Position numbers and translations under genes: made by a program
Source: Candidatus Kuenenia stuttgartensis
Lineage (GTDB): Bacteria > Planctomycetota > Planctomycetia > Gemmatales > Gemmataceae
Reading direction: 5' to 3'
Assembly: GCA_945875585.1 (NCBI GenBank)
Contig: CAMCLK010000005.1
Span: 1-64,000 of the forward strand
DNA length: 64,000 nt
Notes under the pieces: generated by a model
The model's database searches: none
Seen by the model: only the letters and a program-made list of their open reading frames with translations
What the model was told of the DNA's origin: nothing
Shown: positions 2,301 to 56,855 of the stretch, one piece after another
How the letters are laid out: each line of letters opens with the position of its first letter
Position numbering within the stretch: position 1 is the stretch's first letter

Positions 2301-2460
2301 GATGACCTCGCAGGCTTCAAGAGAAAATCGGTCAAGCGTATAATTAATAGTTAGGAGGTAGACCGGGCAATGGTCAATGGCTTCCGTCATCTGAGAGCAG
2401 ATTATGAGATTGTCTGGGGGAGATGGGACTTGAATCCTGCCGCGTGACTCCTAGCAGAAT

Positions 2461-2469
2461 AGTATAGCA
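2461..2469 (-). promoter_or_regulatory. Candidate extended -10 promoter for the peroxiredoxin set
   Basis: Read on the minus strand this is TGCTATACT, a TGn extended -10 followed by a five-of-six match to TATAAT, with no good -35 at 17 bases. A start near 2454 would leave a leader of about 150 bases before the peroxiredoxin ATG. An AT-rich stretch near 2336-2350 is a possible second promoter. Confidence 0.35.
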
Positions 2470-2475
2470 ATGCGT

Positions 2476-2496
2476 GGGATCGCGACCGGCGATCCC
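2476..2496. other. 8-bp stem, 5-base loop hairpin in the divergent intergenic region
   Basis: GGGATCGC at 2476-2483 pairs perfectly with GCGATCCC at 2489-2496 around GACCG. It lies between the divergent peroxiredoxin and ABC-ATPase genes, 33 bases before the ATPase start and next to the candidate minus-strand promoter. It could be an operator dyad or a leader hairpin. No T-run follows, so a terminator is unlikely. Confidence 0.4.
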
Positions 2497-2529
2497 TAGG
2501 CACCACAAGCTACCGGGGAATGATCGCCG

Positions 2530-3504
2530 ATGATGGTCGACATCCAACATCTCACGAAATTTTTCGGACCCGTACTGGCCGTCAGCGATGTGTCGTTGCG
2601 CATTGAAGCCAACGAAATCGTGGGCTTGCTTGGAAACAACGGGGCAGGGAAAAGCACCTTGATGCGCATGCTGACCACCTATTTGCCCGCTACCAGCGGT
2701 CGAATCATGGTGGACGGCTTCGACGTATTGACGCAGTCTCAGGATGTGCGCAGGCGAATAGGTTATTTGCCAGAAAGTATTCCGCTTTATCCGGAAATGC
2801 GGGTGGAGGAATACCTTCGCTTCAGGGCTCAACTCAAAGGGCTCCAGCGGTCACAAGTCCGAAGCCGTATCGACAGCGTGCTGGGCAGGTGCCGTCTGAT
2901 GGATGTGCGCCGCCGTTTGTGTGGCACGCTTTCCAAAGGTTTCAGGCAGCGTGTGGGTCTGGCAGATGCCCTTCTTGCCGATCCTGCCTTGCTGATTCTT
3001 GATGAACCAACCGATGGCTTGGATCCTGGCCAAAAGCAGGAAGCTTTGGCTTTGCTGCGCGATCTCGGCCGCGAACACACCATTCTGTTCAGCTCCCACC
3101 TGCTGGGCGAGGTCGAGACCCTCGTCAGCCGTGTCGTCATTCTCCGCCGAGGGCATCTGGCGTTGGACAAGCGCATCGAGGAACTTCGTGAAGAGGCCAA
3201 CCGCGAACGTACCCTGCGTTTCGAAGTGCGGGGCGAAGCCAAAGCGGTTGAGGCGGCACTGAATGCCTGCGCTACTGTGGATGCTGTCAAATCAATCGCC
3301 TACTCTCAACTGCCAGATGGCTGGACTCAGGGGGAACTCAGGTTACCCGGAGCCATGGATCCGCGTGAAGAACTGGTCCGCCGGATGTCAACGGCAGGAG
3401 TAGGGCTGAGGCATATTGAATTCCACCGTCCATCGCTGCAAGACCGCTGGAACGAAATCAACAACCGCGACGTTGCGACGCTCAGGCAGAAAACAACCGC
3501 CTGA
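2530..3504 (+). CDS. ABC transporter ATPase, GldA/NosF type
   Basis: ATP-binding subunit of an ABC-2 exporter. The 324-residue product has Walker A GNNGAGKST at 35-43, an ABC signature LSKGFRQ at 134-140, Walker B LLILDEP at 154-160 and a switch His in FSSHLLGEV. It also has the roughly 100-residue C-terminal tail common in GldA-like proteins. The start is ATG 2530, with a second in-frame ATG immediately after. It begins a four-gene exporter set followed by permease, GldG-like and DUF4340 genes. In Bacteroidetes the homologous Gld proteins serve gliding motility. In planctomycetes the same set is common but its substrate is unknown, so motility should not be assumed. Confidence 0.93.
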   Translation: MMVDIQHLTKFFGPVLAVSDVSLRIEANEIVGLLGNNGAGKSTLMRMLTTYLPATSGRIMVDGFDVLTQSQDVRRRIGYLPESIPLYPEMRVEEYLRFRAQLKGLQRSQVRSRIDSVLGRCRLMDVRRRLCGTLSKGFRQRVGLADALLADPALLILDEPTDGLDPGQKQEALALLRDLGREHTILFSSHLLGEVETLVSRVVILRRGHLALDKRIEELREEANRERTLRFEVRGEAKAVEAALNACATVDAVKSIAYSQLPDGWTQGELRLPGAMDPREELVRRMSTAGVGLRHIEFHRPSLQDRWNEINNRDVATLRQKTTA

Positions 3505-3551
3505 AAACAGCGCAATGGCATTTAATCTATTCGCGATCCGGAGACCGTACC

Positions 3552-5117
3552 ATGGCTGAATTGAATGAAATGCTGTCCGCACCCAAAGCCGACGAATCCT
3601 CGGAACCCCGGTTGGATGGCCCGGGTCCATCGCAAATGATGGAAGACGAACTAGCAATGCCACGGATGGTGGGTATTGCCTCGGTGATGGCGTTGATTAT
3701 TGGTTTTGTGGCAGTGGGATTCGGCTTGCAGGACCGTTCGTTCGCCATTGGCCCAGGCCTTGGACTTCTGTTCATGATCGCTGGCCTGACAGGCTTGGTG
3801 GTCCATGCGTTTATGGAAGAAGACGCGACCTTGCGTTTGGCCTTTTTTGGTGCCGGCGTCGTGGGTGCGCTTGCAGGGACCGGCGTCTTGTTTCTGTCCG
3901 ACTGGAGCGTTGCTGGGCGTGCCCTTGGTGCCATTATCGCATTTGTGGCGTTGCCTTTGCTTTTGTCGGTCGCTCGTGGTTCATCTGCCCAGCAACCCGT
4001 TCTTGGGTTTGTACCGCGAGGGTTGCTGATTGCTGGGATTGCGCTTTTGACCATCGGGCTGGCTTGGCTTTTCCGCTTGAGCGAACGCGGTGAATTCGAA
4101 AACATTGGTTTACCCCTGGTGCTTTCGGCTCTTGGCGGGGCATACTTTTTGGGAGTATTGGGATTTTTAGGCTGGGAATCCGAGCTGGGTAATCGCTCGG
4201 GTTGGTTGGCAACGCTGGGTGGCTTGGCGATAGCCCTGCTGGCCTTGCTACGCTCCTTGGCCCACGAGGCGGGTTGGTGGCCCGCGCTGGGTTCCGCTTA
4301 CTTTGTTCCGGGCGGTTACCTCATTGTTTTGGTTTCGCTGCTGTTGGCCGGTGCGTCGTATGCAACTGTGTCCGATCGCCCCACGCTGGTAGTGGCCCGT
4401 CGTGAACTGGAAGCTTTCTTTTACTCGCCGATCGCCTATTTTGTTCTGATATCGTTCGCCTTGGCGACGTGGTTCAGTTACCAGAATTTTCTGGGCAACC
4501 TTGCCGAGGGTCGGGTGCTTGAACCCATTCTGAACTATTATGTTATTGAACTGTTCTTGATCATCTGTCTGCTCTTTTCCGTGCCCCTAATCACCATGCG
4601 GTTACTGAGCGAAGAAATGCGCGCGGGCACGCTGGAAGTATTGTTGACAGCCCCTGTCGACGAGACAGCAGTTGTGCTTGGCAAGTTTCTGGCGGCGTTC
4701 GTCATGTTCATGTCGCTGTGGCTGCCATTCGCGCTTTATTTGTTGTCACTCCCCGTGGCGGCGCAGCCCGGTTTCGACTTCCGCCCTTTGCTCAGCTTTG
4801 CTGTCGTGCTTTCCGCGACCGGTGCCGGATTTGTAGCCATGGGGCTGCTGTTCAGTGCCGTATCGAGCAACCAGCTTGTGGCGGGAGCGCTCACGCTGGT
4901 TGGCATGATCGGCTTGCTCGTGCCTTACATCCTTCAGTTCAGGCTGATGGAGACCAGCGGTTGGGGAACTGTGTTGAACCACATCTCGTTCCTCAGCGGC
5001 TGGGAAAGCGCGCTGGAAGGGAAGTTGATCCCTCGGCAATTGGTGTTTTCGTTATCCTTGACCGTGTTTTGCCTGTTCTGCGCCGGCAAGGCGCTTGAGT
5101 CTCGCAAGTGGAAATAA
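3552..5117 (+). CDS. ABC-2 permease, GldF-like, with an extra N-terminal membrane domain
   Basis: Membrane partner of the preceding ATPase. The C-terminal part (from about residue 275) looks like a standard GldF/NosY permease: an RRELEAFFYSPIAYFVL opening, a long periplasmic loop, then MRLLSEEMRAGTLEVLLTAP, the coupling-helix region typical of these permeases. Before this sit about 270 residues with roughly seven additional hydrophobic helices separated by short loops, so the protein (521 residues) is about twice the usual length. A charged, helix-free head of about 35 residues precedes the first membrane helix. A GGAGACC ribosome site supports ATG 3552. The extra domain may be a fused second membrane subunit. 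Confidence 0.9.
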   Translation: MAELNEMLSAPKADESSEPRLDGPGPSQMMEDELAMPRMVGIASVMALIIGFVAVGFGLQDRSFAIGPGLGLLFMIAGLTGLVVHAFMEEDATLRLAFFGAGVVGALAGTGVLFLSDWSVAGRALGAIIAFVALPLLLSVARGSSAQQPVLGFVPRGLLIAGIALLTIGLAWLFRLSERGEFENIGLPLVLSALGGAYFLGVLGFLGWESELGNRSGWLATLGGLAIALLALLRSLAHEAGWWPALGSAYFVPGGYLIVLVSLLLAGASYATVSDRPTLVVARRELEAFFYSPIAYFVLISFALATWFSYQNFLGNLAEGRVLEPILNYYVIELFLIICLLFSVPLITMRLLSEEMRAGTLEVLLTAPVDETAVVLGKFLAAFVMFMSLWLPFALYLLSLPVAAQPGFDFRPLLSFAVVLSATGAGFVAMGLLFSAVSSNQLVAGALTLVGMIGLLVPYILQFRLMETSGWGTVLNHISFLSGWESALEGKLIPRQLVFSLSLTVFCLFCAGKALESRKWK

Positions 5118-5174
5118 AACATACAGGGTTGCCTGCGTTGACCCGTCGGAATCGTTCGTGGAGGTGGCGGACTT

Positions 5175-7040
5175 ATGAATGATTGGAAAGCGGAAGAAGC
5201 CCGGGCACGTGAGCGGGTGATCCCCCTTCTCGCCTTGGCCGTTACCGGATTATTGCTGTTTGCAGCCGGTCTGATCATCCCGTGCGTGAAGCGCGACTTT
5301 TACGAAGTGATTTCCGGTGGCGTGACCCAGTGGCGGGCCCGTCCGTTTCCGTTGATCATGACGGGCCTGCTGCTTGCCTTGGGCATCGCCTGCCTTTTGG
5401 CAGCATCGGTCCTAGGACGTGGTGGCGAGCGTGCCAGCCCCGCGGTTCGTCGCCTGCTCTATGGAGCCAACACCCTTGTCGCGGGCCTGTTCTTGGTAGG
5501 AATTCTCGTTTTTGTGAACGTGCTGAGCACATTGCGTCTGGGGCGATTCGATATCTTCAACCAGACCTTCGATTACACTCAGTCATCGCTTTACACGTTG
5601 GCCCCCAGCACCCGCCAATTCCTGACCAATCTCCGCGAACCCGTTAGCCTTTATTACTTCCACAGTCCGTTCAGTGGTTCAAGCCAGTTCGCCCGTGCTG
5701 AAACCGCTACACTTGTTGAAAATTGCAGGCGTTTACAACCTTCACTTGTCACGTGGGACGTTCTCGAACTACCCGGGGAATCTGGCCTGCGCGATCTTGA
5801 GGAGCTTCGGAAAAAATACCAGTTCCCCGAAGAATTGGGATTATTGGTGGTGATGGGTGGTAATCACGAATTCATCAAAGCTTCAGAACTCGTGTCGCAG
5901 CAGCGTTCCGGTCAGCCGGGCGATCCATCGGCTGGTTCCACACTTCAGTATCTGGGTGAAGGGAAATTGCTGAACACCCTCGTGTATCTTTCGGAAAACA
6001 AAACCAAGGCAACCCTTTACCTGACCACCGGGAATGGCGAATTAACCCGAGAGAATCTCGAACGCACAGGTGGTTGCGCACAGTTGGCAACCATGCTCGA
6101 AAAAGACAGTTACAAGGTTGAATCGCTGCCCTTGGGCCCCAAGTCTGGCACTATTCCCGCGGACGCCGACATCATCATCATGGCAGGTCCCAAAAACGAT
6201 CCCAGCCAGGCGGCACTCGATGCCCTCGAGAAGTTTCTGCAAGGAGGCGCCTCGGGCAAAAAAGGCAAGTTGCTGGTCCTACTCGGGCCTGAACGTGAGC
6301 GCGTGAACGGTACGGTTGGTTTCTCACCGTTTCCCCGTCTGAAGGCTTTGTTGCGTAAATTCAAAGTCGAGGTTACGGACCAGATTGTTGTTTCAGGTGA
6401 AACCCCGCCACCCCACACAACCACCATCGGTGTGGCCAACCCCAAGGTCACCAGCAGCCTAACCAAACCCCTCCGCCGAAATGGCGGCTTGGTGCCGTTT
6501 GAACTTCCGGAAGTCCGCGTGATTGCTTCTGTTCCTTCGGCGCCGGTCGATCCGGGTGCGCCTGCGCCTGCAGCAATGAATGCAGAGTCGTTTTTGATTG
6601 CCTATCCGCGTCTCGATCCTCGCCCTGTTTCCAATCTCAGTCAGGGCTTTGAAGCCCTTGTGAGGTCGAAGGGTTGGGAAGAAGGCAAAAACCCACCAGC
6701 TTCTAATGAGGAAGTTTCCATTGGCGCAGCGGTTCAGGAAGGAATCACGCCACGTTTGGTGGTGCTTGGCAACGCCCGCGCGTTCAACGACGAATATCTG
6801 ACACGTGCCCGTTCCGATATGTCGTTGGAACTGGCTAGCACATGCGTGAACTGGTTGCGTGAACGCTCCAACCTTGGGGCCAAGCCTTCTGATCAGGTAA
6901 AAACCGAACGCAAGACCTACAAACTCGAAATGGATCAGCGTACTGCTGGGTTCAACCGATTGCGATTTCTACCACCTTGCCTAGCGGTACTGATGATCGC
7001 TGGTATGGGCGCTGGCGTGTGGCTTATCCGCCGCCGTTGA
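5175..7040 (+). CDS. GldG-like ABC transporter auxiliary protein
   Basis: The 621-residue product has three N-terminal membrane helices (about 17-38, 57-80 and 95-117), a large extracytoplasmic region and a closing helix near 597-617 with an RRR tail. The segment SLYTLAPSTRQFLTNLREPVSLYYF, from about 137, is the characteristic opening of the ABC_transp_aux (GldG) domain. That domain continues through a Rossmann-like core with ADIIIMAGP near 330. A strong GGAGGTGG site lies upstream of ATG 5175. GldG proteins are thought to sit with GldF in the membrane and handle cargo outside it. The low-complexity Pro/Ala stretch near residues 455-470 is probably a flexible linker. Confidence 0.88.
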   Translation: MNDWKAEEARARERVIPLLALAVTGLLLFAAGLIIPCVKRDFYEVISGGVTQWRARPFPLIMTGLLLALGIACLLAASVLGRGGERASPAVRRLLYGANTLVAGLFLVGILVFVNVLSTLRLGRFDIFNQTFDYTQSSLYTLAPSTRQFLTNLREPVSLYYFHSPFSGSSQFARAETATLVENCRRLQPSLVTWDVLELPGESGLRDLEELRKKYQFPEELGLLVVMGGNHEFIKASELVSQQRSGQPGDPSAGSTLQYLGEGKLLNTLVYLSENKTKATLYLTTGNGELTRENLERTGGCAQLATMLEKDSYKVESLPLGPKSGTIPADADIIIMAGPKNDPSQAALDALEKFLQGGASGKKGKLLVLLGPERERVNGTVGFSPFPRLKALLRKFKVEVTDQIVVSGETPPPHTTTIGVANPKVTSSLTKPLRRNGGLVPFELPEVRVIASVPSAPVDPGAPAPAAMNAESFLIAYPRLDPRPVSNLSQGFEALVRSKGWEEGKNPPASNEEVSIGAAVQEGITPRLVVLGNARAFNDEYLTRARSDMSLELASTCVNWLRERSNLGAKPSDQVKTERKTYKLEMDQRTAGFNRLRFLPPCLAVLMIAGMGAGVWLIRRR

Positions 7041-7068
7041 CACTGGCCATCTCATTGAGGGAATACCA

Positions 7069-9591
7069 ATGAATCCGCGCACGACCTACATTCTTGGAAG
7101 CATATTCCTGGCCATGCTGGTTCTGGTGGGGCTGGCAGTGTTTTGGGGACCTGCGGCCTCCGATCAGGGCAGGCATGTTTTCCCCGGTTGGCATGGGGCG
7201 ACTTCCGTTGAAGCTAACCCAGCGGATTCGGTTGTTCGTTTGCGCATAGAGCGCACGGAACCCGTTGCTGAAACGCTTGAATTTGTACGTCAGGGAACGG
7301 GCGGTACTTGGAAGCTTGAAGCTCCGTTTGCAACAAGTGCGGACAATTTTGCAGTGGGCGCCCTAGTTCGGGCTCTGGTTGAAGCCCGCCGCGATGGCGA
7401 TCGTGATGTTACCGGGTCGTTTTCAAGCCTTGGATTGGACCAGCCTGTTGCCACAGTCACTTTAACCGATTCCAGCAACGTAGCGCGGACCTTGAAGGTA
7501 GGCAAAACCCTCCCCGGTGCCACAACTCCCCAAACGGTGGTTGAATCGTCTGATCGCGCTGGCAAGCCGATGATTGTGTCGCGCCGCGACATTGCAGACC
7601 TGTTCAAGGCACTTTCAGCACTGCGCGATAAAGCCCTTGTTGCTGCAACAGAATCAGATATCGATTCCTTTGAATTGAGCGAAGGCAAGCGTGGTCCCGT
7701 TGCTTTGCGCAAGAAAGATGGCCGCTGGCGTTACACCCTCCCTGACCTTGGACCCGCCGAAGGGGGAGATGCTGGCGCCCAGGCCCAGCCGGGTAGTTCC
7801 GCAGACGTTGGATCTCTGCTTCGCGATCTAGTAGCACTACGCCTCGAGCAGGTGGGCGAACGTGCCGGGGATCGCAACGATTTTGTTGCCGACAACGTGA
7901 CGGATCTCGCCAGCCACGGATTGGATGCCACCAAGAATCGGGTGTTGAAAATCAAGGTAGACCGAGCGGAAACCGTAAAAGTCGAAGGCGGCGCTTCCGA
8001 GGCCAGTGTCAAGGTGGTGACCTTACTGATTGGACTCGACAAACGCGCCGAGATCAAACCTGAAGGGAAAGAAGGGCCAACGGCCCAATGGGTGGGCTAC
8101 CCCGCAACCATTGAAGGTTCTGGCAGTGTTGTGCGTGTGCCTGCCCGCCCCGTGGAAGCACTTCTGAAATTGCTCGAAACACCTGATCTTGTTCGCGACC
8201 GGGCCTTGGTTCGCCTGTCGGGTGAACCGGATGTGATTGAAATCCGCAATGGATTGGGGTCTTTCGAATTGATCAAACCGGCTGCTGGAGGTGCTTGGCA
8301 GCTTTGGAAATTGAATGCAACGGCACCCTTGGCAGCAGATACCACGGTTGTGGCTACCTTCCTTGAGGCATTCCGCAAAGAACGGATTTCGTTCGTTGAA
8401 GGAGATCCCAAGGTCAAGGAAAAGGAACTCGATCTCGATCGCGCGCCCGACAAGCAGGTGTCTGTGACATTCCGTTTGGGTGGAGTCCTTCAAGACGCCG
8501 TAGCCAAACCGGATGAAGGCAAAGAAAGCACCCCTAAAAAGCCCCGGATCAAGGAAGCGCGTCCAGATGCAGTCATTGTGTTCGGTAAACGCATGGGCGA
8601 AGAAGTAGCCACCCGCAGGATGTGGGGAGATGATGTGGCCCTTGTGAAGGCTGGTAAACCGCTGCTGGACATAACGGAACAAGGAACGCTGGGGTACTTG
8701 GAAAAGCGCTTGCCTTCGTTGGCATCGTCAGCAGACATAGCTGGGGAAGCCACAGGCCTGACAGTAGCGCAAAACGATGTCTCCGTTGAGGTGACGCGGG
8801 AAGCCAAGGACAAGACATGGGCTTTCAGCCTGCCTGCAGATCGCAAGGCAATGCCTGTTAGCCCCGAGGCTGTGAAAGCAACCTTGTCAGGGCTGATCTC
8901 CCTGCCAGTGCGTCGTTGGATTGCTGAGACACCCTCGGCAGCTCAACTCGACCAATACGGACTTTCCAAGCCCAAACTTGTCGTAACCGCATTGCTGCTT
9001 GGCAAAGATGGAAAAAAGGAGCAAGCGACCGTTCACTTTGGCTCGGACATTTCAGATAAGGGCGAAGTTTATGCGCGAGTTGCCGGGGGCGAGCGTGTGT
9101 TTGCCACGGACAAGGCAGCACTGGTGCCACTCCAATCCGCACTGGAAGACCGGATGCCATTCCGCGACCTCAATCCGCCCAAAGTAGCCCATATCAAAAT
9201 CATTGGCTGGCAGGGAATCAACGGAACGCCCGTAACGCTTGAAGTGGAACGAAAAGATGGAGCATGGGTAGCGAAAGACCCGGCCAAGGATTTCCCTGTA
9301 GCCGGGGCAAAAATCGATGCCCTGCTTGGAAGCATTAAGGCGTTGCAAGCAGAACGATTTGTCAAATACGCAGGAAACGCAGACCCTGCCCACGAAATTG
9401 AGCCGGCTAAAAATGGCATGCGGATAGAAATCACGGAAGAAGGAAAAACCGAACCCGTGTTCCTTGGCCTTGGAAAGGCTGAAGGTGCGTCGTTGAATGC
9501 AACGGCCTCCAAGTACCCCGGAGCCGTATTTCTAGTCCCCAAAGCACCGTTCGAGGATGCGATGCAAGGGCGTGCTCGGTTCAAGCAATGA
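7069..9591 (+). CDS. DUF4340 domain protein of the Gld-type exporter set
   Basis: An 840-residue protein with one N-terminal membrane anchor (about 7-27) and a long extracytoplasmic part made of repeated beta-rich modules. Each module has strand patterns such as VVRLRIERTEP and DGAWVAKDPA, the DUF4340 style of repeat in which substrate-like strands end in a Trp-x-x motif. At least two modules are visible, near 50-180 and 590-790, with lower-similarity copies between. DUF4340 proteins regularly follow GldG-like genes in planctomycetes and other phyla. The usual protein is 300-450 residues, so this one appears to be an expanded, internally duplicated version. The role is unknown. Its TGA overlaps the next gene by four bases. 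Confidence 0.85.
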   Translation: MNPRTTYILGSIFLAMLVLVGLAVFWGPAASDQGRHVFPGWHGATSVEANPADSVVRLRIERTEPVAETLEFVRQGTGGTWKLEAPFATSADNFAVGALVRALVEARRDGDRDVTGSFSSLGLDQPVATVTLTDSSNVARTLKVGKTLPGATTPQTVVESSDRAGKPMIVSRRDIADLFKALSALRDKALVAATESDIDSFELSEGKRGPVALRKKDGRWRYTLPDLGPAEGGDAGAQAQPGSSADVGSLLRDLVALRLEQVGERAGDRNDFVADNVTDLASHGLDATKNRVLKIKVDRAETVKVEGGASEASVKVVTLLIGLDKRAEIKPEGKEGPTAQWVGYPATIEGSGSVVRVPARPVEALLKLLETPDLVRDRALVRLSGEPDVIEIRNGLGSFELIKPAAGGAWQLWKLNATAPLAADTTVVATFLEAFRKERISFVEGDPKVKEKELDLDRAPDKQVSVTFRLGGVLQDAVAKPDEGKESTPKKPRIKEARPDAVIVFGKRMGEEVATRRMWGDDVALVKAGKPLLDITEQGTLGYLEKRLPSLASSADIAGEATGLTVAQNDVSVEVTREAKDKTWAFSLPADRKAMPVSPEAVKATLSGLISLPVRRWIAETPSAAQLDQYGLSKPKLVVTALLLGKDGKKEQATVHFGSDISDKGEVYARVAGGERVFATDKAALVPLQSALEDRMPFRDLNPPKVAHIKIIGWQGINGTPVTLEVERKDGAWVAKDPAKDFPVAGAKIDALLGSIKALQAERFVKYAGNADPAHEIEPAKNGMRIEITEEGKTEPVFLGLGKAEGASLNATASKYPGAVFLVPKAPFEDAMQGRARFKQ

Positions 9592-49884: not shown

Positions 49885-50397
49885 ATGGGGCCCGATCTGG
49901 ATAGCCTGCTTGCTTGTTTTCCCGACGAACCATCCATGGACGTCGAGCTTATTTCGTCTGTTCCCGAGCCTTATTCTTCACTTTTGGCACACAATCACCA
50001 TATGACGGTGGCGCTTGAATGCCACCATGGATCTCCGGTCGAAGTGACTGTGCTGAAAAGTGGTGTTGATGGCGACGTGTACCACCGCCGAATCGAATTG
50101 TTGTTGCGTGGCACCAGAACTGTGGTTTTATTTGGACTCGTGCGCATTCATTTGTCGCTGGTCCCAGATGAGGCCCGCCGGGAAATTCTTGAAGAGTGCA
50201 AGCCCCTTGGCCGAGTACTCATTGAACGCAATGTGATGAGGCGCGTCGAGCACACGGCTTTGCTGAGATTTCCGGCTCGGCCTGTCGATCTGGAAAGATT
50301 TGCTTTGGCCGGGCCCCAAATGCTGTACGGCAGGTTAGCTTACCTGTATTGCAACGACCAACCGGCTATTGAACTGCTTGAGGTGGTTCGCCCGTAG
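49885..50397 (+). CDS. Chorismate-lyase-like (UbiC/UTRA fold) protein
   Basis: A 170-residue protein whose second half, PLGRVLIERNVMRRVEHTALLRF and MLYGRLAYLYCNDQPAIELLEVV, follows the pattern of the chorismate pyruvate-lyase/UTRA fold: a Gly-x-x-Leu turn, a beta strand with Arg, then a strand closing on P-x-I-E-L-x-E. UbiC splits chorismate to 4-hydroxybenzoate and pyruvate. The similarity is at pattern level only, so a related ligand-binding role is possible. It follows the prenyl synthase fusion by 15 bases, which makes a joint role in an isoprenoid-quinone-like product attractive. Confidence 0.65.
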   Translation: MGPDLDSLLACFPDEPSMDVELISSVPEPYSSLLAHNHHMTVALECHHGSPVEVTVLKSGVDGDVYHRRIELLLRGTRTVVLFGLVRIHLSLVPDEARREILEECKPLGRVLIERNVMRRVEHTALLRFPARPVDLERFALAGPQMLYGRLAYLYCNDQPAIELLEVVRP

Positions 50398-50413
50398 ATC
50401 AACACAAGGGAGA

Positions 50414-53400
50414 ATGCTTGTGGCTTTCTTACTGATGGCACTGGTTTTCGGGGTTGTGGCTGATCCGTTGGTTTCCGGACCAGTCGAATTCAACCGCGAT
50501 ATTCGGCCGATCCTTTCAGACCGATGCTATTTTTGTCATGGTCCAGACAAGGGGCATCGCAAAGCCGACCTTCGACTGGATACCCGGGAAGGCCTTCTGG
50601 GTGCCCCGGGGGAAACAGGATCGGTTGTCCCTTCCAAACCCGATGCCAGCGAATTGCTGGAACGCATACTTTCCACAGACCCAGACAAGCGCATGCCGCC
50701 TCCCAAATCTGGTAAGGACCTATCGCCTGCTGAAATAGCACTCATCCGCCGCTGGATCGAGCAAGGTGCGCCCTATGAAGGCCATTGGGCCTTTCAGGCC
50801 ATCAAGCGCCCCAAACCAGCAGTCGTTGCTCCTGAACCCATAGATGGTTTCGTGAAGGCATTGCTGGCCAAAAAAGGCTTAACTATGGCAGGTCCAACAG
50901 ATCGCCGAACGCTCTTGCGGCGATTGTCGTTTGACCTGACAGGCTTGCCACCTACGCCCGAAGAAGTCGATGCCTTTGTGGCGGATCGTTCGCCGGATGC
51001 CCTTGCCAAACAGGTGGATCGGCTGCTTTCTTCTCCCCGGCATGGTGAACGCTTGGCTATGTGGTGGTTAGATTTGGTTCGTTATGCTGATACCGTGGGT
51101 TACCATGGCGACCAACCCGTGAGTGTGCACCCTTTCCGCCAATACGTGATCGATAGTTTTAATGCCAACGTGCCTTTCGACCGGTTCACCCGCGAGCAGA
51201 TTGCCGGTGATCTTTTGCCCGGTGCCGGCGACCGCGAAAAGATCGCCTCAGGATACAATCGGCTTGGAATGATGAGCGCTGAGGGTGGCGTGCAGCCCAA
51301 GGAATATCTGGCCAAGTACATTGCCGAGCGCGTGAGGAATGTATCGGGTGTGTGGTTGGGTGTCACGCTTGGTTGCGCTGAATGCCATGATCACAAATAC
51401 GACCCGTTTGCCACGCGCGAGTTTTACCGCATGGAGGCATTCTTTGCCGACATCAATGAAAAAGGTCTGTACGGCGGCGGCACCGACTGGGGGCCAAGCA
51501 TGCGTGTCCCTACCAAGGTGCAACGCGAAGAGCTGGCGAGGATCGAAGCCGATATTTCAAAATCACGATCTGAAATATCCAAAAGCGACCCTAGGGTGAC
51601 GGAAGCGTATCGCAAGACGCTCGAGGCTTGGAAAATTCTTGAAGTCCGCAAGCAGCGAAGCCTCGGCGGTGCCAAGCTCGCAGTGCGAGGCCCAGGATCG
51701 ATTTTGGCATCAGGCAAAAGCCCGCCAACTGACACCCATGTGATGGAAATTGTGGCCCCGGCGGGCGGTTTAGCCGTACTCCGTCTGGAGGTGTTGCCAG
51801 CCGATGGCTTGCCGGGGCGCGGTCCCGGTCGAGCCAGCAATGGTAATTTTGTGCTGACGGAAATCAAGGCTCGCAAGGCTGGAGATGCCGCCGCGCCGTT
51901 GTTGCCATTCAAGTCGGCCCGGGCCACCTTTGAACAGACCGGCGCGTCTGCGGGCAATCCGTGGGGCCGCTGGGTTGCTGAAGCCGCGATCGACAACGAT
52001 GCCAAAGGTCCGGGTTGGGGCTGGGCAATCATGGAGGAGGCAGGTCAGGCGAATGCCGCGGAATTCACCTTGGCTACCCCTGTCCCGGCTGGCACAGTTC
52101 TTGAAGTCAGCCTTGTGCAGAACCACCCGAACCCAGCTCACACATTGGGTTCATACCGGTTGATGGGGGCATCCCAAGCTGTTGAATCGCTTGTTCGCCC
52201 ACAATCGCAGGACATTGTCACCATTTTGGCGAAGGAGCCAAAGTCACGAACACCGGATGAAGTGAGCAAATTTGAAGCCAGCGTTGCCAGAGACATGCTA
52301 GATGGCTCACCAGTGGGTGCCGAGTTGCGCCGCCTTGAAAAACGTAAGGCGGACATTATTGCTACTGCTCCCACCACGCTTGTTACCGAGCGCGTGATGC
52401 CAAGAACCGTGAAAATTTTGGCACGTGGCAACTGGATGGATGAAAAGGGCGAGGCCGTGACCCCCGGCACACCGGCAGTTCTCGGGGCGTTTAAGCCTCG
52501 CGCCGCATTGGCCGATAGGCTTGATCTCGCCAATTGGGTGGTTTCGCCAGAAAATCCGCTCACAGCGAGGGTGACGGCTAATCGCATCTGGAAGCTTCTA
52601 TTTGGGTCTGGAATATCCCGTAGCCTCGACGATTTTGGCGCGCAGGGCGATTGGCCCAGCCATCCGGAGCTGGTCGATTATCTCGCTGGCCGGTTGGTCG
52701 ATTCCGGTTGGGATTTGCGGGCGTTGATTCGGCAGGTGGTTCTGTCTGAAACCTACCAGCAATCGTCTGCCTCGCCACGGGCGATTCGCGATGCGGATCC
52801 TTACAATCGGTTACTTGCTCGGCAAGGCCGTTTCCGGGTCGATGCCGAGATGGTGCGCGACAATGCCTTGGCTGTTTCCGGGTTGTTGGTGGAAAAAATC
52901 GGCGGCCCCAGTGTGTTTCCGTACCAGCCACCCGGGTATTGGGCATATTTGAACTTCCCCACGCGGGAATGGAGCAACGACGCGGGCGAGTCCAAGCATC
53001 GCCGAAGCGTGTATGTACATTGGCAGCGGCAGTACCTGCATCCATCGTTAGCGGCGTTCGATGCGCCGTCCCGCGAAGAATGCACAGCCGAGCGCACGCG
53101 CAGTAACACGCCGCTTCAATCGCTGGTGCTGCTCAACGACCCCATTCATGTGGAAGCGGCGCGTCAACTGGCGCAGCGCGCGCAAGAAATCAAGGGCGAT
53201 GATGCTGAAAGATTGAAGCAGATGTTCCGCTGGGCCCTTCAGCGGCAGGCGCTTCCCGATGAAAACCGTGTGCTTGCGTCGCTTTTGGCGGGCCAGCGCC
53301 AACATTACAAAGCCTTGCCAGCCGATGCGGCGGCCCTTGTGTCCGTTGGTGGTTTCAAACCTGCTCCTGGAATTGATGTGGTGGAACTGGCGGCATTGAC

Positions 53401-53452
53401 CGGTACCGCCCGGGCCCTACTCAACCTCCACGAAACCATCACACGCGAATAG
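50414..53452 (+). CDS. Planctomycete cytochrome with PSCyt1, DUF1549 and DUF1553 domains
   Basis: A 1012-residue exported protein. A signal sequence (LVAFLLMALVFGVVA) precedes a single haem c motif C-YF-CH (Cys38, Cys41, His42) in the PSCyt1 module. DUF1549 (about 135-340) follows, ending near ECHDHKYDPF, a second Cys/His motif. A long middle region contains a carbohydrate-binding-like beta domain. DUF1553 (about 690-945) includes NRIWKLLFGSGI and the closing ECTAERTRSNTPLQSLVLLND. The start may be ATG 50414, directly after AAGGGAG, or GTG 50420 at better spacing. It is paired with a DUF1501 gene 11 bases on, an arrangement frequent in this phylum. Confidence 0.93.
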   Translation: MLVAFLLMALVFGVVADPLVSGPVEFNRDIRPILSDRCYFCHGPDKGHRKADLRLDTREGLLGAPGETGSVVPSKPDASELLERILSTDPDKRMPPPKSGKDLSPAEIALIRRWIEQGAPYEGHWAFQAIKRPKPAVVAPEPIDGFVKALLAKKGLTMAGPTDRRTLLRRLSFDLTGLPPTPEEVDAFVADRSPDALAKQVDRLLSSPRHGERLAMWWLDLVRYADTVGYHGDQPVSVHPFRQYVIDSFNANVPFDRFTREQIAGDLLPGAGDREKIASGYNRLGMMSAEGGVQPKEYLAKYIAERVRNVSGVWLGVTLGCAECHDHKYDPFATREFYRMEAFFADINEKGLYGGGTDWGPSMRVPTKVQREELARIEADISKSRSEISKSDPRVTEAYRKTLEAWKILEVRKQRSLGGAKLAVRGPGSILASGKSPPTDTHVMEIVAPAGGLAVLRLEVLPADGLPGRGPGRASNGNFVLTEIKARKAGDAAAPLLPFKSARATFEQTGASAGNPWGRWVAEAAIDNDAKGPGWGWAIMEEAGQANAAEFTLATPVPAGTVLEVSLVQNHPNPAHTLGSYRLMGASQAVESLVRPQSQDIVTILAKEPKSRTPDEVSKFEASVARDMLDGSPVGAELRRLEKRKADIIATAPTTLVTERVMPRTVKILARGNWMDEKGEAVTPGTPAVLGAFKPRAALADRLDLANWVVSPENPLTARVTANRIWKLLFGSGISRSLDDFGAQGDWPSHPELVDYLAGRLVDSGWDLRALIRQVVLSETYQQSSASPRAIRDADPYNRLLARQGRFRVDAEMVRDNALAVSGLLVEKIGGPSVFPYQPPGYWAYLNFPTREWSNDAGESKHRRSVYVHWQRQYLHPSLAAFDAPSREECTAERTRSNTPLQSLVLLNDPIHVEAARQLAQRAQEIKGDDAERLKQMFRWALQRQALPDENRVLASLLAGQRQHYKALPADAAALVSVGGFKPAPGIDVVELAALTGTARALLNLHETITRE

Positions 53453-53463
53453 GAGATCTGTAT

Positions 53464-54861
53464 ATGTTGCCTTCACCGATTGCGCGACGCAGTTTTTTGC
53501 GGCACTCAGGCCTCAGTCTTGGCGGAATGGCGTTGAGCCAAATGTTGGCACGCGACTCCCGCGCGGGTGGATCCATCACCTCGTTGCCGTTCGCTCCCAA
53601 GGCGAAGCGGGTGATTTGGCTCTACATGGCCGGTGGCATGAGCCATATCGACACGTTCGACAACAAACCAAAGCTGGCTCAATTAAACGGTCAGGCAATG
53701 CCCGACTCCGTGACCAAGGGGCAACAGATTGCTCAATTGCAGGGGGCGAAGCTAACCTGTCTCGCGCCCCAGCATCCATTCAAAAAGTGGGGCCAATCCG
53801 GTCAAGAAATATCGGTTATATGGCCAAAGCTCGCCGCTGCCTGCGCCGACAAAATCTGTCTCGTGCGGTCGTTGTCCACCGAAGCGATCAATCATGATCC
53901 TGCCCATACGTTCATGAACACGGGCACCATGATTCCCGGCCGCCCCGCCATGGGCTCGTGGCTCCTTTATGGTCTGGGAAGTGAATCGGAAAACCTGCCC
54001 GGCTTCATTGTTCTGGTTTCCACAGGCCGGTTTGGCCAGCGACAACCTATTGCCGCGCGCCAGTGGCATTCAGGATTTTTGCCCGGTCAACATCAGGGTG
54101 TTGAACTTCGCGGCACGGGCGACCCGGTGCTCTATGTGCGGAATCCTGCTGGTGTGGACATGCCCGCGCAGCGTCAGGTGATTGATGCGGTGGGTGATCT
54201 TAACAGACTCCGCGACCGTGCAGTGGATGACCCGGAAATCAGTACACGTATCAGCCAATATGAGCTGGCATTCCGCATGCAAACCAGTGTTCCAGGCTTG
54301 ATGGATCTTGCCAGCGAGCCGCGCGATGTGCTCGATCTGTACGGCACCAAAGGCGGAGACGGCAGCTTCGGTTCCAATTGCCTCTTGGCACGCAGGCTTG
54401 CCGAACGTGGGGTGCGCTTTATCCAGCTCTATCACCGCGACTGGGACCACCACGGAGCGGTAAAAGAGCATGTTGCCGGAACGGCTGCGGAGGTCGATCA
54501 GGGTGCTGCCGCCCTGATTACTGATCTTGAGCGCCGCGGCATGCTTGACGATACCTTGGTGGTGTTTGGTTCTGAATTCGGACGCACCCCCATGGCTCAG
54601 GGAAATGGCCGCGATCATCATCTGGCCGGGTTTACCATGTGGTTTGCTGGCGGTGGTATCAAGCGTGGTTTCAGCTATGGCAACACCGATGAATTTGGCT
54701 ACCATGCGGTTGAAAACAAAGTGTCGGTGCATGATGTTCACGCGACGCTGCTTCATCAGTTAGGCATCGACCACGAGCGATTCACGCACAAGTTTCAGGG
54801 GCTCGACATGCGCTTGACCGGAGTTGAATCGTGCCGCGTGGTGAAGGAGATTTTGGCGTAA
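53464..54861 (+). CDS. DUF1501 protein (sulfatase-like fold, Tat-exported)
   Basis: The 465-residue product opens with a twin-arginine signal (IARRSFLRHSGLSLGGMAL, RR at 8-9), so it is probably exported folded. The DUF1501 body contains KRVIWLYMAGGMSHIDTFDNKP, an alkaline-phosphatase/sulfatase-like metal-site segment, QLYHRDWDHHG, and VVFGSEFGRTPMAQGNGRDHH near the C-terminus. The enzyme activity of DUF1501 is not established. It always keeps close company with the DUF1549/1553 cytochrome, as here, and may bind or process polysaccharide at the cell surface. ATG 53464 has GGAG upstream. Confidence 0.93.
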   Translation: MLPSPIARRSFLRHSGLSLGGMALSQMLARDSRAGGSITSLPFAPKAKRVIWLYMAGGMSHIDTFDNKPKLAQLNGQAMPDSVTKGQQIAQLQGAKLTCLAPQHPFKKWGQSGQEISVIWPKLAAACADKICLVRSLSTEAINHDPAHTFMNTGTMIPGRPAMGSWLLYGLGSESENLPGFIVLVSTGRFGQRQPIAARQWHSGFLPGQHQGVELRGTGDPVLYVRNPAGVDMPAQRQVIDAVGDLNRLRDRAVDDPEISTRISQYELAFRMQTSVPGLMDLASEPRDVLDLYGTKGGDGSFGSNCLLARRLAERGVRFIQLYHRDWDHHGAVKEHVAGTAAEVDQGAAALITDLERRGMLDDTLVVFGSEFGRTPMAQGNGRDHHLAGFTMWFAGGGIKRGFSYGNTDEFGYHAVENKVSVHDVHATLLHQLGIDHERFTHKFQGLDMRLTGVESCRVVKEILA

Positions 54862-55109: not shown

Positions 55110-56855
55110 TCAGCTTCGGGCCGGGTTTTTACCGTTGAGGATCCGGCCGATTACAGTGTGGCGGACCATCAGTTGGTAGGTGCCCAGCAACAGGGGTATC
55201 GAGATCCCGAGTACCAGAGTGGCTTTGGCCATTGCGGGCAAACGCAGGTAATAAAAAAACCACTGGCAGCAAATCACCACGGGAACATGCGTCAGGTACA
55301 GCCAGTAGGACGCGTCCGCAACATATCGGAAATAGCCGTTGCCTGATCGGAATATCTGGTGGGCCAAGCCGATAGCGCCAAGAACCATGCACCAGGTGAA
55401 CAGGGCTTTGACAACGGTATTGGGAACTAGCCAGCCAGTCAGAAAAAAAGTCGAGGGGAAAAGAACCAACGAGGCCAGGGGCAACGTGATGAGCCAATGC
55501 CGCCCGAGCAGGCAGGCGGTGTCGTTCAACCGGTAGTACCAGCACCCGAAAAAGAAGAACACCGCGTAGTAAAAAAACACGTGCGGTTTGGGCACGATGC
55601 CAATGGAAAGGTCGGGCCCTATTCGGGATAACAGGGTTCTCGGGAAATAATCCAGGTTCATGAAGGCCTGCGCGGCGCAGGTCAGCACGAATGCCACAAG
55701 CAAGCCCGCGGGTAGATGACTAGGATTCCAACCGGAACTTGGATTTTCAACATTGCAAAACATAGACCATCCAAAATAGATGATGCACAGCCACCAGAGG
55801 TACCAGAGAAACCAAAGGTGATCGAAGAAATTATCCTGCAGCAGGTTGATCTCCGTGCCCCCGATCTTTGCCACCAACATGTCGGAAGACAGCCAAGCGA
55901 AATATTCCCGCATGAATCCCGGCAATGCCGCTACCTCAGCGGGAGCAGCGCGAACAACTTGGGAGACCGGAGCGGCAAGGGGTTCTCTAGACAACCCCGT
56001 CAGATAGCCGATCACATCCTTCCGGCCTCGTTCCAGCGCGGTTATGTCGGCCGGCCAGACTCCTTTTGCCAGCCAGATTTCCGTTGCGGATTCCCCGGCG
56101 GCCTGATGGGCGGAAATCCAGGGCGACTTGCCCGCGGCAGTCGCAAGAAAAGGATCGCCTCCTTTATCGATGAGAAGTTTCAGGAGGTCCACCCTGCCCA
56201 GCATCGAAGCGATTGTCATCGGGTTGCCCCCGGCGCGGTTCACGGCATTTGGATTGGCTCCAAGGTCCAGCAACTGCCGCACGACTGGTTCAGACTCGCA
56301 CAGCACGGCCCAGGCAAGCGGAGTCATGACCATGCGTTTCTCGGGCATCTCGAGGCACCCGGGCGGGCCCATGGCCACCAGTTTGGACACTAGCCCGGTG
56401 TCCCCTTGCTGGATTGCCTGAAAGATTGGCATTTGTGGATGGCTGGCTGTGTCGCTCACTATCAGAAGACTCAGCACCTTGATGAAAGGCATCAGGGTAA
56501 GAACACACAGTAGGAGTGGAACCAGTATGCGTGCCGCTCGGTTTTTCAGCATGCCTTTTGCGCCTTTTCGGCTGGCCAGCATCGCTGTGAAAAAACCGCT
56601 CACCAGAAAGAACAATTGCATACGGAACGCATGGATGAAATTCACGGCCTCGGCCAGAGACGCGTTCATGTCGCCGTCCATGACAATCCACGGACTTCCG
56701 CAGTAGGCCATCAATGCATGCAGCGCGATTCCAAGCAGCATGGCGATGGCCCTGAGGGCATCGAGGTCATGACGCCTTGGATCGGGCAGATTTCCCCCGG
56801 CAGGATCGGCATGTTTTTTCGGCACACTTCGAAATGCGGCCAATTGATCGCTCAC
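55110..56855 (-). CDS. Acyltransferase-3 family membrane protein with inserted ankyrin repeats
   Basis: Integral membrane acyltransferase (OafA/OpgC type), expected to move acyl groups onto an extracytoplasmic glycan or lipid. The 581-residue product has the opening RHDLDALRAIAMLLGIALHAL, with the family Arg28, His29 and catalytic-type His46, then about nine further membrane helices. After the third helix an insert of about 160 residues (140-300) contains ankyrin-like repeats (TPLAWAVLCESEPVVRQLLDLGANPNAVN and a second unit near 205-235). That insert is not a normal part of the family. It is third in a minus-strand operon, 17 bases after the ABC transporter. It ends in a KNPARS tail. Confidence 0.85.
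   Translation of the reverse strand: MSDQLAAFRSVPKKHADPAGGNLPDPRRHDLDALRAIAMLLGIALHALMAYCGSPWIVMDGDMNASLAEAVNFIHAFRMQLFFLVSGFFTAMLASRKGAKGMLKNRAARILVPLLLCVLTLMPFIKVLSLLIVSDTASHPQMPIFQAIQQGDTGLVSKLVAMGPPGCLEMPEKRMVMTPLAWAVLCESEPVVRQLLDLGANPNAVNRAGGNPMTIASMLGRVDLLKLLIDKGGDPFLATAAGKSPWISAHQAAGESATEIWLAKGVWPADITALERGRKDVIGYLTGLSREPLAAPVSQVVRAAPAEVAALPGFMREYFAWLSSDMLVAKIGGTEINLLQDNFFDHLWFLWYLWWLCIIYFGWSMFCNVENPSSGWNPSHLPAGLLVAFVLTCAAQAFMNLDYFPRTLLSRIGPDLSIGIVPKPHVFFYYAVFFFFGCWYYRLNDTACLLGRHWLITLPLASLVLFPSTFFLTGWLVPNTVVKALFTWCMVLGAIGLAHQIFRSGNGYFRYVADASYWLYLTHVPVVICCQWFFYYLRLPAMAKATLVLGISIPLLLGTYQLMVRHTVIGRILNGKNPARS

Follow-up and report, generated by a model that had tools for sequence, protein, structure and literature searches.

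The locus raises the question of what an ankyrin-repeat domain is doing inside a loop of a membrane acyltransferase, one of a class of enzymes that attach acyl groups to molecules of the cell surface. The window, that is, the whole 64,000-nucleotide stretch of DNA that was analysed, encodes the protein in one reading frame of 581 codons' worth of residues with no internal stops, and a Shine-Dalgarno-like stretch, GAGAGG, lies immediately 5' of the gene. The Pfam Acyl_transf_3 profile of acyltransferase-3 (AT3) proteins (PF01757) matches with an E value of 1.7e-24 and 87 bits against a gathering score of 31, and this match is split in two by ankyrin repeats. The repeats are themselves matched by Ank_2 at residues 145–235 (E 5.3e-14, 53 bits against a gathering score of 27.3) and by Ank (E 5.3e-8, also above its gathering score). 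An AlphaFold model built with 10 sequences had a pLDDT of 81, and with 78 sequences the 581-residue protein was modeled with a pLDDT of 90.7 and a pTM of 0.90. The model shows ten long helices, as in other AT3 proteins, the third transmembrane helix ending at about residue 137 and the fourth starting at residue 345, with the ankyrin domain between them. A preliminary description of this DNA had put an ankyrin-like insert after the third helix, at about residues 140–300. That placement was right: Pfam Ank_2 and the AlphaFold model agree on it, and the domain search and structure prediction of the insert both yield a recognisable ankyrin fold. The features are listed in Table 1.

Table 1 Locations of the AT3-ankyrin gene, its domains, its operon neighbours and the gene arrangements at related loci.
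Feature	Location	Strand	Remarks
AT3-ankyrin gene	55110..56855	(-)	581 aa, GTG start
AT3 TMH1-3, residues 29-137	56445..56771	(-)	DxxRx10H, FxxxxG, RxxR
Whole loop 3-4 insert, residues 138-343	55827..56444	(-)	Ankyrin domain, cap, linker, beta-hairpin
Ankyrin repeats, residues 143-264	56064..56429	(-)	Four helix pairs, last degenerate
Capping helix after repeats, residues 271-288	55992..56045	(-)	Conserved G277, R278, L285
AT3 TMH4-10 and C-terminal tail, residues 344-577	55125..55826	(-)	HLWFLW, G437, SxxxY
FHA + ABC ATPase + ABC-2 permease half-transporter, 772 aa	56873..59191	(-)	About 20 bases upstream of AT3-ankyrin gene
Redoxin-domain protein, 702 aa	59188..61296	(-)	Operon gene 1, 4-base overlap with transporter gene
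Ankyrin-only gene, L064	1331-2401		Directly upstream of AT3-ankyrin
Ankyrin-only gene, L123	4839-5933		Directly upstream of AT3-ankyrin
Ankyrin-only gene, L126	5223-5954		Directly upstream of AT3-ankyrin
Ankyrin-only gene, L113	1225-2529		Directly upstream of AT3-ankyrin
ECF sigma, Ser/Thr kinase, AT3-ankyrin, in this order	L096, L105, L110, L111, L114 and others		Pirellulaceae-type genomes

The membrane domain was compared with the motifs defined for AT3/TmAT proteins (PMC9833829, PMC12423673). The DxxRx10H motif of TMH1 (D32, R35, H46), FxxxxG of TMH2 (F82, G87), RxxR of TMH3 (R106, R109), the glycine of TMH6 (G437) and SxxxY of TMH9 (S516, Y520) are all present, and H46, F82, G87, R106, R109, G437 and Y520 are invariant in an alignment of 78 rows. 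The sequence and predicted-fold features that mark AT3/TmAT proteins are therefore found, namely the Pfam score, the complete set of motif residues and the ten predicted transmembrane helices. By profile, motifs and fold, the protein is an AT3 acyltransferase of the TmAT superfamily, and its catalytic activity is presumed from the sequence.

The insert is modeled as four ankyrin-type helix pairs (residues 143–162, 179–197, 212–230 and 245–264), followed by the cap, a linker and a small β-hairpin at residues 328–337, still ahead of TM4. Foldseek matches of the model are ankyrins and DARPins, with target TM-scores of up to 0.82. The ankyrin part carries an average net charge of -5 over the 78 proteins. 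Neither E. coli OpgC nor plain AT3 relatives have the insert; in those plain relatives that come from the same bacterial family, loop 3-4 is merely short.

Relatives were sought in one genome per species across 84,980 species, which yielded at least 490, and the best 79 loci were used. Under the names given by the depositors, mostly to metagenome assemblies, these 79 best loci belong mostly to Planctomycetota, and also to Verrucomicrobiota, Armatimonadota, Poribacteria and one Acidobacteriota. Both AT3 and Ank_2 were matched in 78 of 78 aligned proteins (the window protein and 77 relatives), a set of best matches that is hence biased towards this layout. The combination of the two domains is thus not due to chance. 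A survey at E 1e-70 found such a protein in at least 13 of 292 Planctomycetota genomes, a lower bound given that four candidates were scored per genome. The insertion thus recurs in relatives within a single gene, and not as two separate genes, the outcome that would have counted against the preliminary description. An artefact of gene fusion or assembly is ruled out, because each of the 78 aligned proteins is encoded in one frame that contains both domains; one locus, L067, is divided between two frames and lies on a short low-coverage contig. AT3-ankyrin is a real, conserved domain architecture inside a known enzyme superfamily. The preliminary description had also known of no described AT3 protein with an ankyrin insert, and the literature searched for the two domains together, which contained no published account of the layout and nothing relevant to the combination, bears this out.

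In an unrooted tree of the AT3 columns only, the 78 ankyrin proteins all fall on one side of a branch with an SH-aLRT of 99, in a quick search run without bootstrap, from which three very distant rows of plain AT3 proteins were omitted; in an earlier tree that included those three rows the ankyrin group was not resolved. With the root not fixed, the one-sided branch is consistent with a single insertion event. Within the window's own genome, Ank_2 matches occur in only two proteins, the AT3-ankyrin protein of the window and a paralogue of the same layout that is 38% identical to it. At L040 (C1; 2778-4847 and 6981-8729), the gene of the paralogue is two genes away from one for an animal-type haem peroxidase, and in L073, a relative of it, a gene of the same cluster is directly downstream. 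In L064, a FecR-domain gene and an ankyrin-only gene are followed by three AT3-ankyrin genes in tandem (2459-7686).

What the insert contributes may be read from the loop that it occupies. In computed models of OafB, not a solved structure, loop 3-4 is a re-entrant loop that closes off the acyl-CoA pore until it shifts out of the way (PMC9833829). We put at about an even chance the reading that the protein is an OpgC-like acyltransferase with a periplasmic ankyrin domain that recruits a partner or acceptor and perhaps gates the pore. The ten-helix membrane domain would take an acyl group from cytosolic acyl-CoA and deliver it to an acceptor beyond the cytoplasmic membrane. The periplasmic domain of about four repeats and a cap, positioned over the acyl exit, would recruit a partner protein or an acceptor that is carried by a protein. 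The nature of the domain, its gene neighbourhood and the exported-looking ankyrin-only proteins described below suggest that the domain probably docks a partner over this exit. Partner binding may also be coupled to pore opening, because loop 3-4 gates the pore in the OafB models. The fuller proposal, in which a periplasmic protein, once bound, would open or close the acyl-CoA channel and the domain would act as an allosteric or acceptor-recruiting switch, is tentative and somewhat unlikely. In the window's clade there might also be a link to whatever the co-encoded FHA-ABC exporter carries. Counting against the recruitment reading are neighbours that vary by clade, the rarity of ankyrin-only partners and the mainly scaffold nature of the conserved ankyrin residues.

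This last point bears on an unlikely alternative, that the insert is passive, a rigid lid or stabiliser that was gained in one event and has been retained without a specific partner. In the 78-row alignment the best-conserved ankyrin positions, the invariant ones among them, are mostly fold residues, and the insert columns vary more than the membrane helices (mean entropy 2.2 versus ~1.5 in TM1-3), as a passive element might. However, the insert is retained in all the aligned proteins, from five phyla, although these are best matches and biased to the layout. Some positions outside the usual repeat consensus, such as F218 (61/78) and R278 (68/78), are also kept, the latter in the cap helix together with L285 (71/78), and ankyrin-only genes with similar caps recur alongside. 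We continue to favor recruitment of a partner or acceptor.

The window gene is the third and last of a tight operon-like run, redoxin, FHA-ABC and AT3-ankyrin. Convergent with this operon, at 50369-54861 (+), is a gene pair that is common in planctomycetes, one gene for a PSCyt1/PSCyt2/PSD1 (DUF1549/DUF1553) protein followed by one for a DUF1501 protein. Across the loci, a redoxin gene at position -2 and an ABC transporter gene at position -1 each occur in 7 loci against ~2 expected, with maxima of 6 and 7, respectively, in 2000 within-locus shuffles. Four of the transporters at -1 were confirmed to have an FHA domain. In a second clade, redoxin and ABC-2 genes also lie near the AT3-ankyrin gene but in other gene orders, and no FHA domain was detectable in its ABC neighbours. 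A Pirellulaceae-rich clade has a Ser/Thr kinase gene immediately upstream of AT3-ankyrin in 12 loci, where shuffling predicts 3.6 (maximum of 8 in 2000 shuffles), and in 5 of the 12 an ECF-sigma gene precedes the kinase gene. The loci counted here are related to one another, so that their occurrences are not independent. Elsewhere, FecR and ECF sigma, MacB/HlyD or alginate lyase genes are found beside AT3-ankyrin. All neighbour counts are minima, as antisense ORFs masked AT3-ankyrin genes in the high-GC loci L085, L107 and L124. A single conserved pathway was sought in these neighbours and not found, the contexts varying by clade; the neighbourhoods are suggestive of a regulated modification of the envelope or surface rather than of any one pathway.

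The kinase, ECF-sigma and FecR neighbours, together with the FHA-ABC gene in the window's clade, would also fit a protein that is chiefly a sensor or regulator, whose ankyrin domain reads an envelope signal and whose AT3 part serves a signalling chain and not bulk acylation. This is distinctly unlikely. A pure sensor would have no use for the catalytic motif residues of AT3, all of which are kept, and no kinase gene lies beside AT3-ankyrin at the window locus. Moreover, Planctomycetota are rich in kinases and ECF factors anyway. The evidence is better matched by an acyltransferase that recruits a partner.

Ankyrin-only genes adjoin AT3-ankyrin in 4 of ~79 loci. Judged by eye, the proteins of L064, L123 and L126 have lipobox-like (lipoprotein-type) signals, and that of L113 has an N-terminal membrane helix. 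The C-terminal ends of all four resemble the cap conserved in the AT3-ankyrin insert. Ankyrin domains of this cap-bearing sort thus appear to be exported, and the ankyrin-only neighbours may be partners of the AT3-ankyrin proteins or the source of the insert. Their similar caps and adjacency, as well as the tandem genes of L064, could also be explained by an ankyrin domain that drives self-assembly or pairing with ankyrin lipoproteins, the enzyme being an oligomer. This is improbable in view of how rarely such partner genes occur; an Ank_2 search of the window's own genome found none. Docking of a partner at the acyl exit remains the preferred role.

The side of the membrane on which such docking would occur was assessed from loop charges in the 78-protein alignment. 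Loops 2-3, 4-5 and 8-9 and the C-terminus contain 15–37 K+R per 100 residues, compared with 2–9 in loops 1-2, 5-6, 7-8 and 9-10; loop 6-7 is mixed. Because this pattern fits the positive-inside rule, the ankyrin insert in loop 3-4 is very probably periplasmic, a prediction for which the exported-looking ankyrin-only neighbours provide independent support. The preliminary description had spoken only of one side of the membrane; this can now be narrowed to one defined membrane loop and, very probably, to the periplasmic side. A cytosolic ankyrin domain that binds a cytosolic regulator or acyl carrier is highly improbable: known ankyrin domains are mostly intracellular, but the loop charge bias, the odd-numbered loop after a cytosolic N-terminus, the AT3 topology in the literature and the exported look of ankyrin-only neighbours with similar caps all oppose it.

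How stand-alone AT3 enzymes recognize their acceptors has been posed as an open question (PMC9558356). In the AT3-ankyrin family, which occurs in a widespread group of bacteria, a defined binding domain occupies the loop proposed to gate the pore, and the boundaries of the insert are clear enough for it to be deleted, exchanged or used as bait. The family also draws attention to a recurrent Planctomycetota operon that combines an acyltransferase with an FHA-ABC exporter.

Among known systems, the window protein shares the AT3 domain and its motifs with OpgC/MdoC of E. coli, its nearest characterised counterpart, which succinylates osmoregulated periplasmic glucans. The two align with 40% identity over 105 residues in the N-terminal part (TM1-3). 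However, loop 3-4 of OpgC is short and lacks ankyrin, and in the alignment the window insert falls in that loop. The NCBIfam MdoC model matches the window protein with an E value of 2e-40 and 139 bits, far below its cut-off of 338. Succinylation of these glucans is unlikely in the window's genome, because MdoG/OpgG (PF04349) has no match in this genome, which is 94% complete, and the MdoC score is below the cut-off. Ankyrin repeats outside the bacterial cytosol are also seen in AnkB of Pseudomonas, a periplasmic ankyrin protein that stands alone and is not part of an enzyme.

The AT3-SGNH proteins OafB, OafA and OatA likewise combine AT3 with an extra domain that lies outside the cytoplasm, close to where the acyl group exits (PMC9558356, PMC9833829). 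In these proteins the extra domain is a catalytic SGNH domain at the C-terminus behind an 11th helix, whereas in the window protein it is an ankyrin domain in loop 3-4, and the ankyrin fold is not known to be catalytic. Pfam identifies no C-terminal SGNH domain with an 11th helix in the window protein, and in the AlphaFold model the chain ends soon after TMH10. HGSNAT, of the TmAT superfamily, also has a ten-helix TmAT core with an additional non-homologous domain (PMC12423673), but it belongs to another sequence family and lacks ankyrin in loop 3-4. The domain order of the neighbouring FHA-ABC protein is reminiscent of Rv1747 of Mycobacterium tuberculosis, in which one or more FHA domains are joined to an ABC transporter presumed to act as an exporter. 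Rv1747 and the kinase gene pknF make up an operon of two genes (PMC3908365, PMC5549992), whereas the window FHA-ABC gene is followed by the AT3-ankyrin gene.
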